Assembly (NCBI GenBank): GCA_902537055.1
Contig: CACAZW010000002.1
Location: 61,001-125,000, forward strand
Origin: an uncultured Pelagibacteraceae bacterium
GTDB taxonomy: Bacteria; Pseudomonadota; Alphaproteobacteria; Pelagibacterales; Pelagibacteraceae
Direction: 5' to 3'
Length of the DNA: 64,000 bases
Positions 3,549-31,664 of the stretch are shown here, in pieces. The first letter of the stretch is position 1. Every line of letters starts with the position of its first letter. A program made the position numbers and the translations under genes. The notes below the pieces were generated by a model. The model saw only the letters and a list, made by a program, of their open reading frames with translations. It did not search any database and had not been told where the DNA came from.

Positions 3549-4463
3549 ATGTCAAATATTGTATTCATGGGTACGCCACAGTTTGCTGTGCCTATTCTAA
3601 AAAAAATTAATCAAAAATATAAAATTAACTGTGTATTTACGCAGCCTCCAAGTAAATCAAATAGAGGTCAAAAGTTTACGAAATCACCAATTCATAAATG
3701 TGCAGAGGAACTTAATCTAGAAATTAAAACTCCAAAAAAAACTGATGAAGAATTTGAATATCTTAAAGAATTAAATTTAGATCTTGTAATTGTTGTTGCA
3801 TACGGACAGTTAATTTCAAAAAAAATTCTTGATTTGAGTAAAAAAGGGTTTTTGAATATTCATGCTTCATTATTACCAAAATGGAGAGGGGCGGCACCAA
3901 TTCAAAGATCAATTTTAAACAATGAAAAAAAAACTGGTATATCATTTATGAAAATCGATGAAAAATTAGATTCTGGACCAGTATGTAATAAATATTCAAT
4001 AGATATTCTTGACCGAGATAATGCAGAAAATTTGTCTGAAAAATTATCTTATTTGAGCACAGAAAAAATTTTAGAAAATATGCAAAATGTTTTAGAAGGA
4101 GAGGCAATATTTAAAGAGCAAGATCATGCAAAAGCTACATACGCAAATAAAATTAAAAAAATAGAGGGAAAGATAGATTGGAATAATAGTGCTAGTAAAA
4201 TAATTGCTCAAATAAATGGATTATATCCAAAACCTGGTGCATGGTTTCAGCTTAACAACAAAAGATATAAAATATTAAAAGCCAAATTTAACAAGCAGTC
4301 AGCAATAATCGGTGAAGTAATCGACGAACAAATGACAATAGCATGTGGTGAAAATTCAATAAATATTATTGAGATACAAAAAGAGGGCAAGAATCCTCAA
4401 TCGATTAAGGAATTTTTATTAGGGAATAAGGTTAGAAAAGGAACAATAATTACAAGTGAATAG
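3549..4463 (+). CDS. fmt: Methionyl-tRNA formyltransferase
   Basis: MGTPQFAVPIL, NIHASLLPKWRGAAPIQRSI motifs. Confidence 0.95.
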   Translation: MSNIVFMGTPQFAVPILKKINQKYKINCVFTQPPSKSNRGQKFTKSPIHKCAEELNLEIKTPKKTDEEFEYLKELNLDLVIVVAYGQLISKKILDLSKKGFLNIHASLLPKWRGAAPIQRSILNNEKKTGISFMKIDEKLDSGPVCNKYSIDILDRDNAENLSEKLSYLSTEKILENMQNVLEGEAIFKEQDHAKATYANKIKKIEGKIDWNNSASKIIAQINGLYPKPGAWFQLNNKRYKILKAKFNKQSAIIGEVIDEQMTIACGENSINIIEIQKEGKNPQSIKEFLLGNKVRKGTIITSE

Positions 4464-5196
4464 ATATCAGATTCTAATAGAATACGAAGGCACTTTATAC
4501 AATGGTTGGCAAATTCAAAAAAAAGGTAAGTCAATACAGGAAAATGTTGAGATTATCTTATCTAAACTATTAAAAGAAAAAATAAAAATTTATGGGTCTG
4601 GACGAACAGATACAGGAGTTCATGCTAAAGAGCAATCAGCTCACTTTGATACTACAAACAAAATTATTCAAAAAGATAAATTATTGAATTCACTAAACTT
4701 CTTTTTAAATAAAAAAAAAATATCTATTTTAAAAATAAAGAAAAAAAATAAACTTTTTCATTCAAGATATTCTGCAAAAGAAAGACGGTATACTTACTTA
4801 ATTAGAAATGATGCTTCTCCTTCAGTTATAAATTTTAACAGAGAGTGGCATATTAAAAAAAAAATTGATGTTGAATTGATGAAAAAGGGAGCAAAAAAAT
4901 TAATTGGAACTCATGATTTTTCAACTTTTAGAGCATCTAATTGTGCTGCAAAAAGTCCGGTAAGAACCATGAAAAAAGTAAAAATAACCAAAGTTAAAAA
5001 TGTTATAAAAATTGAATTTGTGTCAAAGTCATTTCTTAAGAGTCAAGTTAGATCCATGGTTGGTTCACTCAAATACCTTGGTGAAAATAAATGGAACTTA
5101 AAAAAATTTACCAGTATCTTTAAATCAAAATCTAGAAAAAATTGTGCTCCTATTGCTCCTGCACATGGCTTATATCTTGAGAAAATTATTTATTAG
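4456..5196 (+). CDS. truA: tRNA pseudouridine(38-40) synthase
   Basis: YEGTLYNGWQIQ, GSGRTDTGVHA motifs; def-fmt-truA order. Confidence 0.94.
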   Translation: MNRYQILIEYEGTLYNGWQIQKKGKSIQENVEIILSKLLKEKIKIYGSGRTDTGVHAKEQSAHFDTTNKIIQKDKLLNSLNFFLNKKKISILKIKKKNKLFHSRYSAKERRYTYLIRNDASPSVINFNREWHIKKKIDVELMKKGAKKLIGTHDFSTFRASNCAAKSPVRTMKKVKITKVKNVIKIEFVSKSFLKSQVRSMVGSLKYLGENKWNLKKFTSIFKSKSRKNCAPIAPAHGLYLEKIIY

Positions 5197-5647
5197 AATT
5201 CTTTTTTTTCTTTTTTATTCTCCATCTTGATCCTTCTCTAACTATATAACCACAACAATTTTTGGAACCACACTTACAAGGAAAATCCTTATAGTTTTCA
5301 TCAAAACTAAACCCATAATCATAAGTTAGTTCCTCATTTTTATTTATATCTTTAATGGAACTTATCCATAATTTTAAACCTTTGCCTTCAACTTCGCAGT
5401 TTGGATCACAAGAGTGATTAATAAGTCTTGCAGTATTGTAAGCAAAATCACCGTCTAAATCATATCTATTATTTAAGTTAAAAAGATAAATCGCTTTATC
5501 ATTATCAAATTTTGGATTATTTTCGGTCTGTTTTTTTGTAATTATTTTACCTGTGTAGTAAATAATCTTAGTTCCTTTTTTTATATTTTTAGATGCAAAT
5601 AGTCCCCTGTTATCAATATTTGATGATTTTTGTTTGTATAGTTTCAT
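5186..5647 (-). CDS. SET-domain protein (putative protein lysine methyltransferase) with post-SET cysteine cluster
   Basis: NRGLFASKNIKKGTKII, RLINHSCDPNCE, EELTYDYGF and CKCGSKNCCGYI (CxCxxxxC post-SET); Lys-rich C-terminus. Confidence 0.88.
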   Translation of the reverse strand: MKLYKQKSSNIDNRGLFASKNIKKGTKIIYYTGKIITKKQTENNPKFDNDKAIYLFNLNNRYDLDGDFAYNTARLINHSCDPNCEVEGKGLKLWISSIKDINKNEELTYDYGFSFDENYKDFPCKCGSKNCCGYIVREGSRWRIKKKKKNSNK

Positions 5648-5649
5648 GA

Positions 5650-6579
5650 TTATTTATTTTCTGACTCGATTAATGCATTTACATGATAATTAGCGCTTTC
5701 AGCAAGTGCTTTCAGGTCGTATCCACCTTCTAATAAAGATACTACTTTTCCGTTAGTAAATTTATTAGTGGCTTTTAGTGTTCTTCTTGTTATTTCATAA
5801 AAATCTTTGGATGAAAGTTCAAATTGAGCTAATGGATCGTTTTTGTGGGCATCAAAGCCAGCAGAAAAGATTAGGTAGTCAGGCTTATATTCAATTAACC
5901 TATCTAAAACTCTATCATAAGCATTAAAATACTTTTCAGAATTTGTACCTGCAGGAAGAGGTATATTAAGAGAATTATTATACTTTCCCTTGTCTTTTTC
6001 TGAGCCACCACCTGGATAAAATGGATATTGATGTGTTGATATATAAAGTGAATTTTTGTTGTCATACATTACATCATAATTTCCATTTCCCCAATGAACA
6101 TCAAAATCTACACATGCAATTCTTTTATACTTATATTTTTTTTTTAAATAATTAACTGCAACACCTGCATTAGAAATACAACAGAAGCCCATTGATTTAT
6201 TTTTTTCGGCATGGTGTCCTGGCGGTCGCACAACACAAAATGCATTTTTATATTTTTTATTTTCAATTCCATCTATTGCGCTTATAGCTGATCCTGCAGC
6301 CTGAAATACTGCATCCTTACTTCCAGGCGATACAACTGTATCACCATCTAAAAAATTTAAGCCACTTTTAGGAAATGAGTCTTTTAAATTATTAATATAA
6401 TCTTCAGAATGTGTCATATTAAGAATATCATTAGGAACAACATCTGGCTTATCCCAAAGCAGTTCTTTATTTTTTTTTAAAGTATCAATTATTGAAATTA
6501 CTCTCTTCGGTTGCTCTGGATGACCATCGCCTGTTATATGTTTTTCTGAAGAATCAGATGTTATAATTGCAGTTTTCAA
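5650..6579 (-). CDS. Histone deacetylase / acetylpolyamine amidohydrolase superfamily protein
   Basis: VRPPGHHAEKNKSMGFC, CVDFDVHWGNG, SAGFDAHKNDPLA, LLEGGYD motifs. Confidence 0.92.
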   Translation of the reverse strand: MKTAIITSDSSEKHITGDGHPEQPKRVISIIDTLKKNKELLWDKPDVVPNDILNMTHSEDYINNLKDSFPKSGLNFLDGDTVVSPGSKDAVFQAAGSAISAIDGIENKKYKNAFCVVRPPGHHAEKNKSMGFCCISNAGVAVNYLKKKYKYKRIACVDFDVHWGNGNYDVMYDNKNSLYISTHQYPFYPGGGSEKDKGKYNNSLNIPLPAGTNSEKYFNAYDRVLDRLIEYKPDYLIFSAGFDAHKNDPLAQFELSSKDFYEITRRTLKATNKFTNGKVVSLLEGGYDLKALAESANYHVNALIESENK

Positions 6580-7718
6580 GTGAAGTAATTGTGTAAGATG
6601 TTCTTATAAATCTTAGTTAACTTTTTTAAATCTGAGATCGATGTTCTTTCATTAACCATATGAATAGTATTATTTCTTAACCCAAGCTCAAGACGTGGTA
6701 TCGAACCTAAAAATCTGCTGTCACTAGTGCCACCTCTACAATTTAATTTTGCATTGTTCCCTGTAACTTTTTTTACAACTTTTTTTACCATATAAATTTC
6801 TTTATTTGGCTCTGTGTAAAATGCTTCTCCACTTACTTTATAATCTATTTTGGTTTTGCAATTTTCTTTTTTTGCAACTGCATTAATAATTTTACTAAGT
6901 TTTTTTTTCAAAGATGTCGATTTATAAGTTGAATTAAATCTAACATTAAATTTAGCATTTGCAGATTGTGGGACTACATTTTCAGATATATTATCCACAT
7001 TCATTTTTGTAAATTCCAAATTTGATGGTGGCATATACTTTGTCCCTTTGTCTAGCTGAACACTTTTCAGTTTAGATACTATTTTAGCTAGAGCAGTACA
7101 TGGATTTATATATGTCCCATAAAATGCTGAGTGTCCGCTTTTTCCATATACTGTTACTGTCCCATTCATAGAACCTCTTCTTCCAATCCTGATTTCGTCT
7201 CCAACTGATTTATTTGATGACGGTTCGCCTACTACCGAAAAATCAATTTTTTCTTTTTTTTTCTTTAAATATTTCATAACGGCTGGACAACCATGGCCTG
7301 TAGTTTCTTCATCTGCCGTAATTATTATTGATATAGAACCTTTAAATTTTTTATTTTTAATAAAATTACTTACAGCACTTATCCAACATGCAACACTACC
7401 TTTCATATCCTGGGATCCTCTGCCATATAAATATCCTTTTTTTACAACTGCTTTAAATGGCGGAAACTCCCAATTATTGAGGTTAGCAACAACATCTGTA
7501 TGACCCAAATAATTAATGTTAGGTTTTGATTTACCAAATTTTGCATATAAATTTAATGCTGGTTTAGCACCTGTCCCTTTTGATTTAATTATATGACATT
7601 TAAAACCTATTGATGAGAGTTTCCTTGAAAGGAAATTCATAATACCCTTATCTTCTGTTTTAATTGTTTGAAATTTTATTAGCTCCTGAGCTAACTTTAA
7701 TTCATTATAAGTTTTCAT
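6576..7718 (-). CDS. dapE: Succinyl-diaminopimelate desuccinylase
   Basis: YLGHTDVV, YGRGSQDMKGSVA, TADEETTGHG, GEPSS, GRRGSMNG, GGTSDSRF; next to dapD. Confidence 0.93.
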   Translation of the reverse strand: MKTYNELKLAQELIKFQTIKTEDKGIMNFLSRKLSSIGFKCHIIKSKGTGAKPALNLYAKFGKSKPNINYLGHTDVVANLNNWEFPPFKAVVKKGYLYGRGSQDMKGSVACWISAVSNFIKNKKFKGSISIIITADEETTGHGCPAVMKYLKKKKEKIDFSVVGEPSSNKSVGDEIRIGRRGSMNGTVTVYGKSGHSAFYGTYINPCTALAKIVSKLKSVQLDKGTKYMPPSNLEFTKMNVDNISENVVPQSANAKFNVRFNSTYKSTSLKKKLSKIINAVAKKENCKTKIDYKVSGEAFYTEPNKEIYMVKKVVKKVTGNNAKLNCRGGTSDSRFLGSIPRLELGLRNNTIHMVNERTSISDLKKLTKIYKNILHNYFT

Positions 7719-7722
7719 TAGT

Positions 7723-8550
7723 TTATTCTCTTAAAAGATCGTTAACAGATGTCTTTGATCTAGTTTTTTCATCAACTTGTTTAATTATTACTGCACAATA
7801 TAAAGATGGTGCTTGTGGATTGTTTTTATCTGGTAAGGATCCTGGAACTACCACTGAGTAAGGTGGAATTTTTCCATAAGTTATTTCACCAGTTTTTCTA
7901 TTAACAATTTTTGTTGATTGTCCAATATACATTCCCATACTTAGAACAGAGCCTTCTCCAACTATTACACCTTCTACTACTTCTGACATTGCTCCTAAGA
8001 AAACATTATCTTCAATAATTGTTGGTAATGCTTGGGCTGGTTCTAATACTCCACCAACCCCAGTTCCGGCCGAGATATGACAATTTTTTCCAATCTGACA
8101 ACAACTTCCTGCACGACTAAATGTATCCATCATAGTACCTTCATCTATGTACGCTCCAATATTTACATAACATGGCATAAGAACAGCATTTTTTGCAACA
8201 AAGGAACCACGTCTTGCTGCTGTGTTGGGAACCATTCTGAACCCAGCTTTTTCAAAATCTTCATTCGTCCAGCCAGCAGTTTTACCTTTTAATAAGTGAC
8301 TTTTATCTCTCCATGTTGAATATGGCCCCGCCATGATATCCATTCCATGCATTCGAAAACTTAACATGATAGCTTTTTTTAGATGTTGATGAGTAACCCA
8401 TTCACCATTGATCTTTTCAGCCACTCTTGCTTTTCCACTGTCTAGATCATCAATAATTTGATTAACAGCATCCTTTAAAGATTTATCTGAATTTTGGTTT
8501 ACTTTATCTTTATTTTCCCAAGCTTCATTTATAATTTTTTCAATACTCAT
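7723..8550 (-). CDS. dapD: 2,3,4,5-tetrahydropyridine-2,6-dicarboxylate N-succinyltransferase
   Basis: Hexapeptide-repeat protein with VPNTAARRGSFVAKNAVLMPCYVNIGAYIDEGTMMDT, HISAGTGVGGVLEP. Confidence 0.95.
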   Translation of the reverse strand: MSIEKIINEAWENKDKVNQNSDKSLKDAVNQIIDDLDSGKARVAEKINGEWVTHQHLKKAIMLSFRMHGMDIMAGPYSTWRDKSHLLKGKTAGWTNEDFEKAGFRMVPNTAARRGSFVAKNAVLMPCYVNIGAYIDEGTMMDTFSRAGSCCQIGKNCHISAGTGVGGVLEPAQALPTIIEDNVFLGAMSEVVEGVIVGEGSVLSMGMYIGQSTKIVNRKTGEITYGKIPPYSVVVPGSLPDKNNPQAPSLYCAVIIKQVDEKTRSKTSVNDLLRE

Positions 8551-8554
8551 AATT

Positions 8555-9226
8555 TTATGAGTTTTTTAATAACCTTATTTCTTTTAAAAATAAAGAGAGA
8601 TTTTCGATTTTATAGTCGATGTAATCTTTATCAGACTCTTTTTTGCCCCAATATTCATTATTGATAAGCCAAGCTGTTATAGTACCCCGCTCTTTACCTA
8701 TTGATAAATTTTTAGCTATATCCTCAATATAAAGAGTTTCTTTTGGATTAATCTTAAATTTATCAACCATAAGATCAAAAGCTTTGGCTTCAGGCTTAGG
8801 GTGATATTTTGCGTCTACGATATCAAATATATCTTTAAATTGGTCTTCAATACCAAGAGTTTTCACTATATTTTTTACGTGCGCTTTACTTCCGTTTGTG
8901 AATACGAATTTATTTAAATTTATGTTTTCAAGCTCATTTCTTAAAACAAGATCTTTTTCCATAAATGAAAGATCAATATCATGAACATACTCCAAAAATT
9001 CTTCCGGTGGTATATTATGATGTATCATCAATCCATTTAAACTTGTGTTGTATTTGTGAAAATAATCTCTTTGTAATTCTTTAGCTTTTACAAGATCTAA
9101 TTTGAGTTTATTTGAGATATATTTTGTCATCCTCTTACTAACTTGGCCAAAAACCGCCTCTAAATCATTATATAAAACGCCATCACAGTCGAACAAAATA
9201 TTTTTTATATTTTTTAGATTATTCAT
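8555..9226 (-). CDS. HAD-family hydrolase, pyrimidine 5'-nucleotidase type
   Basis: ILFDCDGVLYND, VFTNGSKAHV, KPEAKAFDLM, YIEDIAKNL; position between argB and dapD. Confidence 0.82.
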   Translation of the reverse strand: MNNLKNIKNILFDCDGVLYNDLEAVFGQVSKRMTKYISNKLKLDLVKAKELQRDYFHKYNTSLNGLMIHHNIPPEEFLEYVHDIDLSFMEKDLVLRNELENINLNKFVFTNGSKAHVKNIVKTLGIEDQFKDIFDIVDAKYHPKPEAKAFDLMVDKFKINPKETLYIEDIAKNLSIGKERGTITAWLINNEYWGKKESDKDYIDYKIENLSLFLKEIRLLKNS

Positions 9227-10074
9227 TTTCTTATTAATGTTCCTGCGCCCTTATCAGAAAATAACTCAAATAGTATTGAATGTGGTTTTCTTCCATCAAC
9301 AATAACAACACCTCTAACACCATTAGATATTGCATCTAGACAAGTGTTTATTTTTGGTATCATACCTCCAGAAATAATATTATTTTTTAACATTTCATTG
9401 GCTTTATCGAGATTAATTTCAGATATAAGTTTTTGATTTTGATCAAGAACCCCCTCAACATCTGTCATCAAAAGAAGACGTCTGGCATCGATCTCTTTTG
9501 CAATTGAACCTGCAGCAACATCTGCATTAATATTATAAATTCTGCCGTCATCACCCAATCCTAAAGGGACAACAATTGGAATTTGTTTATTATTAATAAA
9601 ATTTAATATTTTCTCTTTATTAATTTTTTTTGGTTTCCCGACATATCCCAATTCTTCACTTTCTGGAATAATATTAATTACATTATTTTCTTTAGGTGAT
9701 ATTGAACAAACATTAGTGTTTTTAGATTTTAATTCATGTAGAATCTCTAAATTAAGCTCTATTAAAGCCTCTTCTATATATCTTATTATTTTTTCGTCTG
9801 AAACCCTAAGTCCTTTGATAAATCTTGTTTCAATATTATTTTCATCTAATTTTTTTTTAATATTTTTACCTCCACCATGTACTACTATTGCTGATAAACC
9901 GATTTTGTTTATTACTGAAATATCTTCTATGAACTGATTAAATAGTTTTTTATCTAATAAAACTGATCCACCACATTTTATTACTATAACCTCGGACTGG
10001 TATTTATTTATATATTTTTCAACTTCATTAATATTTGGCCCATCTTTTGGAATAATCTTATCTAATTCCATCAA
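9223..10074 (-). CDS. argB: Acetylglutamate kinase
   Basis: VIKCGGSVL, VVHGGGKNI, LMTDVEGVLD, GGMIPKI motifs. Confidence 0.95.
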   Translation of the reverse strand: MMELDKIIPKDGPNINEVEKYINKYQSEVIVIKCGGSVLLDKKLFNQFIEDISVINKIGLSAIVVHGGGKNIKKKLDENNIETRFIKGLRVSDEKIIRYIEEALIELNLEILHELKSKNTNVCSISPKENNVINIIPESEELGYVGKPKKINKEKILNFINNKQIPIVVPLGLGDDGRIYNINADVAAGSIAKEIDARRLLLMTDVEGVLDQNQKLISEINLDKANEMLKNNIISGGMIPKINTCLDAISNGVRGVVIVDGRKPHSILFELFSDKGAGTLIRK

Positions 10075-30716: not shown

Positions 30717-31387
30717 TTATCTAAGTGCTTAATTAGTTTCTGAATATTATTCTTAATGTTGCCTTTAGTAATATCTCTACCTATTACAAGCCAGTCAGCA
30801 CCGTTTTTGTAAGCCTCATAAGGTGATAAAACTCTTTTTTGATCGTCTCTTCTTGAATTAAATCTTATACCAGGAGTTATAATTTCTTTTTTAAATACTT
30901 TTTTTACTATTTTAACTTCTCGAGCACTACACACAATTGCATCTAGCTTTGCTTTATGGGCTAATTTAGCTTGGTGAAGAACTACTTTCTTTACATCTTT
31001 GCTAAATCCGATTTGCTTCAGTGCTTTATTATCTAAAGATGTTAATATTGTAACACCTACTAATTTTGTCTGACCAGAAACTTTTTTAGAAGCCTTTAAT
31101 GCCTCTAAACCAGAGTTTATATGAATTGTTATGTAATTAAATCTCAAATCTTTAACAGCTTTTATTGTTGAGGAGCATGTATTTGGTATATCCGAAATTT
31201 TGTAATCTCCAAATGTAATTTTGTTTTTTAAACTTGATACAAAATTTCTACCGTCTTTTGAATTTAAAAGCTCTAATCCAAACTTATATCCAATTTTAAT
31301 ATTTTTGTTTTGTGTTTCTTTTATAATTTTTTTAATTTTTTTAATATTTGTGCTATCGCATGCTACAAAAACTTTATTCTTTATCAT
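30713..31387 (-). CDS. pyrF: Orotidine 5'-phosphate decarboxylase
   Basis: FGDYKISDIPNT, ITIHINSG, GVTILTS, DAIVCSAREV, ITPGIRF, DWLVIGRDITKG. Confidence 0.92.
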   Translation of the reverse strand: MIKNKVFVACDSTNIKKIKKIIKETQNKNIKIGYKFGLELLNSKDGRNFVSSLKNKITFGDYKISDIPNTCSSTIKAVKDLRFNYITIHINSGLEALKASKKVSGQTKLVGVTILTSLDNKALKQIGFSKDVKKVVLHQAKLAHKAKLDAIVCSAREVKIVKKVFKKEIITPGIRFNSRRDDQKRVLSPYEAYKNGADWLVIGRDITKGNIKNNIQKLIKHLDK

Positions 31388-31664
31388 TTATTTTTTTTGA
31401 CCAATTTTTTGATATTTTAAAGTTAATAGAATATTTCTCTTTTATGTAGATTTTTTCGTTCGTTCTTGGATTACGAGCATATCTAGCCTTTAATAATTTA
31501 GGTTCTATTGAAAAAACATCTCTTAGTTCAACTCTCTCATGTCTTTTCAGTGATTTTTTTATTTCATCTAAGAAAATTTGAACTATTTTATTTAAATCTT
31601 TTTTTAGAAAATTTGGGTAATTGTTTGAAAATTTATTGATAAGATCTGACCTTTTTGAAGACAA
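31374..31664 (-). CDS. ihfB: Integration host factor subunit beta
   Basis: HU/IHF fold: VELRDVFSIEPKLLKARYARNPRTNEKIYIKEKYSINFKISK; adjacent to rpsA. Confidence 0.88.
   Translation of the reverse strand: MSSKRSDLINKFSNNYPNFLKKDLNKIVQIFLDEIKKSLKRHERVELRDVFSIEPKLLKARYARNPRTNEKIYIKEKYSINFKISKNWSKKINDKE

Follow-up and report, generated by a model that had tools for sequence, protein, structure and literature searches.

With reference to the described systems, the enzymes closest to the smaller of the two genes studied here are the SET domains of the KMT2/MLL (Set1) type, which methylate histone tails in a setting where histone deacetylases and methyltransferases cooperate. The same fold family is found in prokaryotes as chlamydial SET/NUE, LegAS4/RomA and the Methanosarcina SET protein, and virus-encoded SET domains are held in BFVD for giant viruses and a few uncultured Caudovirales. 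In chlamydiae, SET, SWIB and topoisomerase genes co-occur (PMC6426960). BurB, a small SET protein of Burkholderia thailandensis, methylates the free amino acid methionine, which it binds mostly by main-chain contacts (PMC12542666). For the deacetylases, Graf et al. (PMC11532494) described RPPGHH, EGGY and a Leu gatekeeper as marks of cluster 1 acetyl-lysine deacetylases, with the Glu gatekeeper of HDAC10 and the PIS motif of bacterial ApaH setting other types apart, and deletion of the alphaproteobacterial member AZC_0414 of Azorhizobium (modelled on 5ji5 at 45.6% identity) raised protein acetylation (PMC9927263). In this study, a stretch of 64,000 nucleotides from an uncultured Pelagibacteraceae bacterium, referred to as the window, was investigated for a SET gene and an HDAC-family gene that lie side by side. 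Our preferred reading, to which we give a probability of roughly 0.6, is that the first encodes a core SAR11 protein-lysine methyltransferase, possibly with a DNA-associated substrate, that the second encodes an independent deacetylase, and that the two share an operon by position.

A sequence-only reading of the window had placed two minus-strand frames, 2 nt apart, directly after dapD and dapE at the end of a lysine-biosynthesis operon. The frames, their spacing and their strand were recovered exactly as described, and both upstream genes are equivalog matches (Table 1). The operon itself runs in the order yidC, argB, pyrimidine 5'-nucleotidase HAD, dapD, dapE, HDAC and SET, so that dapD-dapE belong to it as proposed, but the presence of yidC, argB and the nucleotidase makes it not purely a lysine operon. 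The SET frame begins with ATG, and the TTG start of the HDAC gene overlaps the dapE stop by 4 nt (TTGA), an overlap shared by several relatives. The ihfB gene that had been reported for the window was also located, as an IHF/HU-family gene.

Table 1. Features of the SET-HDAC locus and related genes, in positions of the window
Feature	Position	Strand	Remarks
truA	4456..5196	plus	convergent; 3' end overlaps SET 3' end by 11 nt
SET-domain protein, 153 aa	5186..5647	minus	KMT2-like SET and post-SET Cys cluster, lysine-rich C-terminus
HDAC-superfamily deacetylase (predicted), 309 aa	5650..6579	minus	class II / cluster 1-like; TTG start inside dapE stop
dapE, succinyl-diaminopimelate desuccinylase	6576..7718	minus	NCBIfam equivalog; immediately upstream of HDAC, same operon
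dapD, tetrahydrodipicolinate N-succinyltransferase	7723..8550	minus	NCBIfam equivalog
pyrimidine 5'-nucleotidase-like HAD hydrolase	8555..9226	minus	TIGR01993 above cut-off; same gene run
argB-like acetylglutamate kinase	9223..10074	minus	TIGR00761 above cut-off; same gene run
IHF/HU-family DNA-binding protein	about 31386..31655	minus	96-aa frame, no lysine-rich tail

The SET protein matches Pfam SET with 83 bits (E 2e-23), and the full landmarks and post-SET cysteine cluster seen earlier are present as N77-H78-S79-C80, E106-L-T-Y-D-Y111-G and C124-x-C126-x4-C131. When 85 relatives were aligned (SAR11, HIMB59, phages and other proteobacteria), none departed from N77, E106 or Y111 (85/85); H78 is kept in 84/85, C80, C124 and C126 in 83/85 and C131 in 81/85, so the catalytic residues that the earlier reading wished to see in alignment are all there. 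The N-H-x-C pseudoknot strand together with the catalytic Tyr makes the protein KMT2-like, and the C-x-C-x4-C cluster with the Cys of NHSC is of the kind that holds zinc and completes the sites for SAM and lysine. Its top solved relatives in a profile search are KMT2/MLL SET domains (E 2.6e-40), about 33-37% identical to it, and the one SET effector model of NCBIfam matches it weakly (26.9 bits vs a cut-off of 550). The structure check suggested earlier gave the same neighbours: an AF2 model built on the 85-sequence alignment (pLDDT 90.1, pTM 0.82), replacing a poor run on 17 sequences (pLDDT 64), has the MLL1 SET domain as its closest fold (TM 0.75-0.77, 32-34% identity). SET was found in 258/297 genomes of the order, being nearly universal in SAR11, and the best relatives, which place the window in SAR11, are 97-99% identical to the window protein. 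Among close SAR11 relatives the median dN/dS was computed as 0.045 for SET and 0.062 for HDAC, with dapE at 0.10 and truA at 0.25 for comparison; both SET and HDAC are under strong purifying selection. Owing to the conserved residues, the profile and fold match to KMT2/MLL and the low dN/dS, the window protein is very probably a functional SET enzyme.

Like the KMT2/MLL enzymes, the SAR11 protein combines SET and post-SET without a pre-SET, carries N-H-S-C and E-L-x-Y-D-Y and has a Tyr at the F/Y switch; unlike them it stands alone at 153 aa, with a shorter SET-I, no WRAD-type partners and no histones. From the chlamydial, LegAS4/RomA and Methanosarcina proteins it differs in being a core gene of a free-living, streamlined host. 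These features predict methylation of protein lysine as the likeliest reaction, and Tyr109 at the F/Y switch, a position that is Tyr in MLL1 too, suggests mono- or dimethylation. Since BurB methylates a free amino acid, the sequence alone does not prove activity on protein lysine. A small-molecule methyltransferase of that sort, turning methionine into S-methyl-methionine, would suit the seawater habitat of SAR11, which is rich in DMSP and sulfonium compounds. BurB is itself a compact bacterial SET protein with this activity (PMC12542666), and the SET of the HIMB59 order lies by phosphate and lipid genes (PMC10734472). The profile and fold neighbours of the SAR11 protein are nevertheless of the KMT2 type, BurB being outside its best 60 profile matches and best 50 fold matches; the post-SET zinc cluster that closes the lysine channel is conserved, and no small-molecule-pathway partner genes are conserved beside SET. 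No residue test is decisive here because the methionine contacts of BurB are mostly main-chain, and we regard a BurB-like activity as quite improbable.

The larger protein matches Pfam Hist_deacetyl with 279 bits (E 7.5e-83), and the HDAC motifs noticed earlier extend to a full set of zinc ligands and active-site motifs: R118-PPG-H122-H123, D160-V-H162, D243 and E284-GG-Y287. The ligands D160, H162 and D243, the dyad H122-H123 and the Tyr Y287 align with those of solved enzymes, as in the class II-like/cluster 1 type, and the foot-pocket motifs RPPGHH and LEGGY are those of robust deacetylases (PMC11532494). Its top single-domain PDB relative is 5ji5, and it shares RPPGHH, D-x-H, D, EGGY and the Leu gatekeeper with 5ji5, AZC_0414 and HdaH of cluster 1, from which it differs by its insertion after dapE and by a Trp at residue 163 in the window's lineage. 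This residue, next to a zinc ligand, is encoded at window positions 6091-6093 in the motif DVHWGNG, where Trp replaces the second His of DxHH; over 53 loci it is H in 35, W in 12, F in 5 and A in 1, and W163 could shift the specificity of the enzyme.

On the strength of RPPGHH, EGGY and the gatekeeper, the 5ji5 match and the relative AZC_0414, the window protein is most readily taken for an acetyl-lysine deacetylase. A role as amidohydrolase of acetylpolyamines or other small molecules is unlikely, even though sub-cluster 1c is annotated as alphaproteobacterial acetylpolyamine hydrolases and small molecules are the substrates of some cluster 1 enzymes (Graf et al., PMC11532494), and W163 comes with other changes around the active site. 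The gatekeeper sought in the window protein is neither the Glu of HDAC10 (PEG) nor the PIS of the cluster 4 bacterial acetylpolyamine amidohydrolases but DPL (Leu250), in line with the DPL of HDAC6; it has RPP and not the RPA of dimethoate/propanil hydrolases, and 5ji5, HdaH and HDAC6 all score far better than the ApaH structures. The comparison with polyamine enzymes, put forward earlier as one that could refute the proposed pair, leaves a deacetylase as the likelier assignment.

The main proposal of the sequence-only reading was that the two enzymes reversibly modify a lysine-rich nucleoid or ribosomal protein. As removing an acetyl group does not undo methylation, reversal by this pair is the wrong chemistry, and the form of the proposal that can be weighed is a functional pair controlling one such protein, in which HDAC would clear acetyl groups and SET would methylate the same lysines. 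Eukaryotic cooperation between the two kinds of enzyme offers a precedent, both genes are under purifying selection, and the order dapE-HDAC-SET|truA occurs in 58/80 named-genome loci (contig ends truncate a few of these), counted among the matches listed in a scan saturated by Pelagibacteraceae. However, another 19/80 loci have SET directly after dapE, before truA, 2/80 have ptrB-SET|truA, in a clade where SET is apart from HDAC, and 1/80, whose contig ends at SET, was left unjudged. Whole-genome stretches also show dapE|truA with neither gene (G032, G158, G054) and with HDAC only up to truA (G009, G164), and two further genomes (G097, G211) have HDAC after dapE and no SET. The dapE|truA junction of SAR11 relatives thus exists in four versions, with both genes, with SET or HDAC alone, or with none. 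In L162 (4948-5067) and L236 (1379-1498), 120 bp are all that remains of HDAC, between dapE and a SET gene that is intact; HDAC has decayed there and SET was kept. Across loci the identities of SET and HDAC to the window are barely correlated (r = 0.27), which fits a recombining site, and phages have taken SET and not the SAR11-type HDAC.

The adjacency, whose conservation in relatives had been named as a check, is kept in the majority of genomes of the window's genus and is absent or broken elsewhere. An HDAC-family match was obtained in 286/297 genomes of the order, a count that takes in a second, distant paralogue. That eight genomes of the same genus had lost SET and HDAC together was considered and rejected, for seven of the eight also lack dapE and the eighth has dapE at a contig end, so these absences are assembly gaps and not true loss. 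Outside the genus, SET occurs in phosphate/phosphonate gene islands (g2 and the HIMB59 order) and, in the second SAR11 family, beside trhO / UDP-glucose dehydrogenase. In three HIMB59-order loci (L078, L079, L080) it adjoins a metallophosphoesterase-glycosyltransferase pair and phosphate-regulon genes. A link of SET to the phosphate regulon was rejected for HIMB59, where the gene is part of a flexible phosphate island already described (PMC10734472), and likewise for g2, where L069 has phosphate genes and L070 phosphonate-type genes on that side of SET; with a flexible island in one group and differing flanks in the other, both contexts are treated as variable sites. Among loci with the order dapD-dapE-HDAC-SET-truA (L089-L168), gene identities to the window are mosaic (dapD 59-99%, dapE 48-98%, HDAC 56-98%), suggesting frequent recombination, and one contig labelled as a Cytophagales MAG (L102) bears the SAR11 locus dapE-HDAC-SET|truA; it was probably misbinned and belongs to Pelagibacteraceae.

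Conserved linkage and co-occurrence across these genomes did not reveal a dedicated SET-HDAC module. With four junction states, an HDAC remnant, uncorrelated divergence and unrelated SET contexts, SET and HDAC are carried independently of each other in a housekeeping cluster, and the lysine-biosynthesis operon is only their insertion site. The two probably do not form a matched pair, and joint control of a single nucleoid or ribosomal protein is very improbable, with the adjacency in most Pelagibacter-genus genomes leaving some room for a functional link.

For the possible substrate of the methyltransferase we turn to its distant homologues, which share about 28-39% identity with the window SET and come from the groups f194 (Burkholderiales-like) and f217, whose beta/gamma assignment is a reading of genome size and gene context. 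In 10 of the 11 SET-bearing f194 genomes examined, SET is divergent beside a topoisomerase of about 1000 aa with a C-terminal SWIB, echoing the chlamydial co-occurrence of SET, SWIB and topoisomerase (PMC6426960), and the SWIB-topoisomerase linker is lysine/alanine-rich and H1-like; the exception (G897) has a separate SWIB gene only. Some f194 SETs (in the set L211, L212, L213, L217, L219 and among six-frame matches) have a lysine-rich tail of their own. Small f217 genomes (1.7-2.0 Mb) show the order dnaA-dnaN-gyrB-SET, with SET about 2 nt after gyrB in L221 (5120-5614) and L222 (5320-5814), and in five f217 genomes HU lies within about 1-10 kb of SET. Through these SWIB-topoisomerase, gyrB and HU neighbours, the chlamydial co-occurrence and the DnaB-like helicase of the phages described below, the wider SET family points towards DNA-associated lysine-rich proteins, a substrate class that we infer for SAR11 by analogy only. 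In SAR11 itself, neither a DNA-topology gene beside SET nor a SWIB gene was found. The lysine tail of TopA was rejected as a substrate, as its length does not track the presence of SET, and so were HU and IHF, which are present in SAR11 but tail-less and show no association with SET. The nucleoid or ribosomal substrate proposed earlier is not supported for SAR11, where nothing links SET or HDAC with IHF, HU or ribosomal proteins.

A scan of viral contigs disclosed 19 contigs with SET and no host flanking genes. The SETs of the IMG/VR marine phage contigs (L169-L187, L246-L263) are intact, with the catalytic residues kept, and their identity to the window SET is 66-71% or 46-48%. On the contigs examined, the hallmark genes near SET include those for a DNA primase, a DnaB-like helicase, a virion structural protein, an ATP-dependent DNA ligase and a dCMP deaminase. 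In group A, the helicase next to SET has its closest counterparts in the very large phages PA5oct and Atu_ph07, and one group B contig has 328 kb; some SET-bearing marine phages probably have very large genomes. The tree puts the group A phage SETs within the Pelagibacteraceae g5 SETs and gives group B a SET of the HIMB59 order as its sister. Because the AU test rejects a single phage origin (p-AU 0.0035), phages captured SET at least twice, from SAR11 and from HIMB59-type hosts; for L169 as a further capture the test gave p 0.39.

A SAR11-type SET was not found in 50,697 deposited phage records, no clear PHROG for SET was found, and the viral SETs of BFVD are only remote ones, about 20-23% identical, whereas the phage SETs here reach 46-71% identity to the SAR11 SET and are nested among host genes. 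The SAR11-type HDAC was not captured by phages, its best match there having 33-38% identity. That phages of two host groups took SET independently suggests a target of importance during infection. A bolder extension would be a SAR11 system in the style of histone tails, in which SET methylates a DNA-bound or replication protein and phages repeatedly took SET from SAR11 and HIMB59 hosts to set or keep the mark while infecting; we hold this as tentative and, on balance, unlikely.

Under our preferred reading of a methyltransferase and an independent deacetylase, the SET protein would act as a SAM-dependent protein-lysine N-methyltransferase with a KMT2-like fold, binding SAM at the face formed by N-H-S-C and the post-SET zinc while the lysine would enter from the opposite side to Tyr111. 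Tyr109 would hold the product at mono- (or di-) methylation, and a lysine-rich, DNA-associated protein would be the likeliest class of substrate. The HDAC-like protein would be a zinc-dependent enzyme deacetylating protein lysine side chains, with no action on the SET product. Both genes were inserted in the housekeeping neighbourhood dapD-dapE|truA-fmt-def and have been lost, gained and recombined there independently. The presence of the genes, their intact motifs, the fold, the purifying selection, the separate inheritance and the capture by phages are computed results, and lysine methylation, its degree, deacetylation and the class of substrate are inferred from them.

SAR11 is among the most abundant bacteria of the ocean. 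Both enzymes are ordinary as enzymes; what is new here is the marine phage contigs with SAR11-related SETs beside replication genes, and the parts worth following are the core SAR11 SET, the degree to which it is conserved and the way phages have captured it repeatedly. As SAR11 keeps few non-essential genes and yet holds SET as a core, strongly conserved gene, our data points to an unrecognised protein-methylation function in these gene-poor bacteria.
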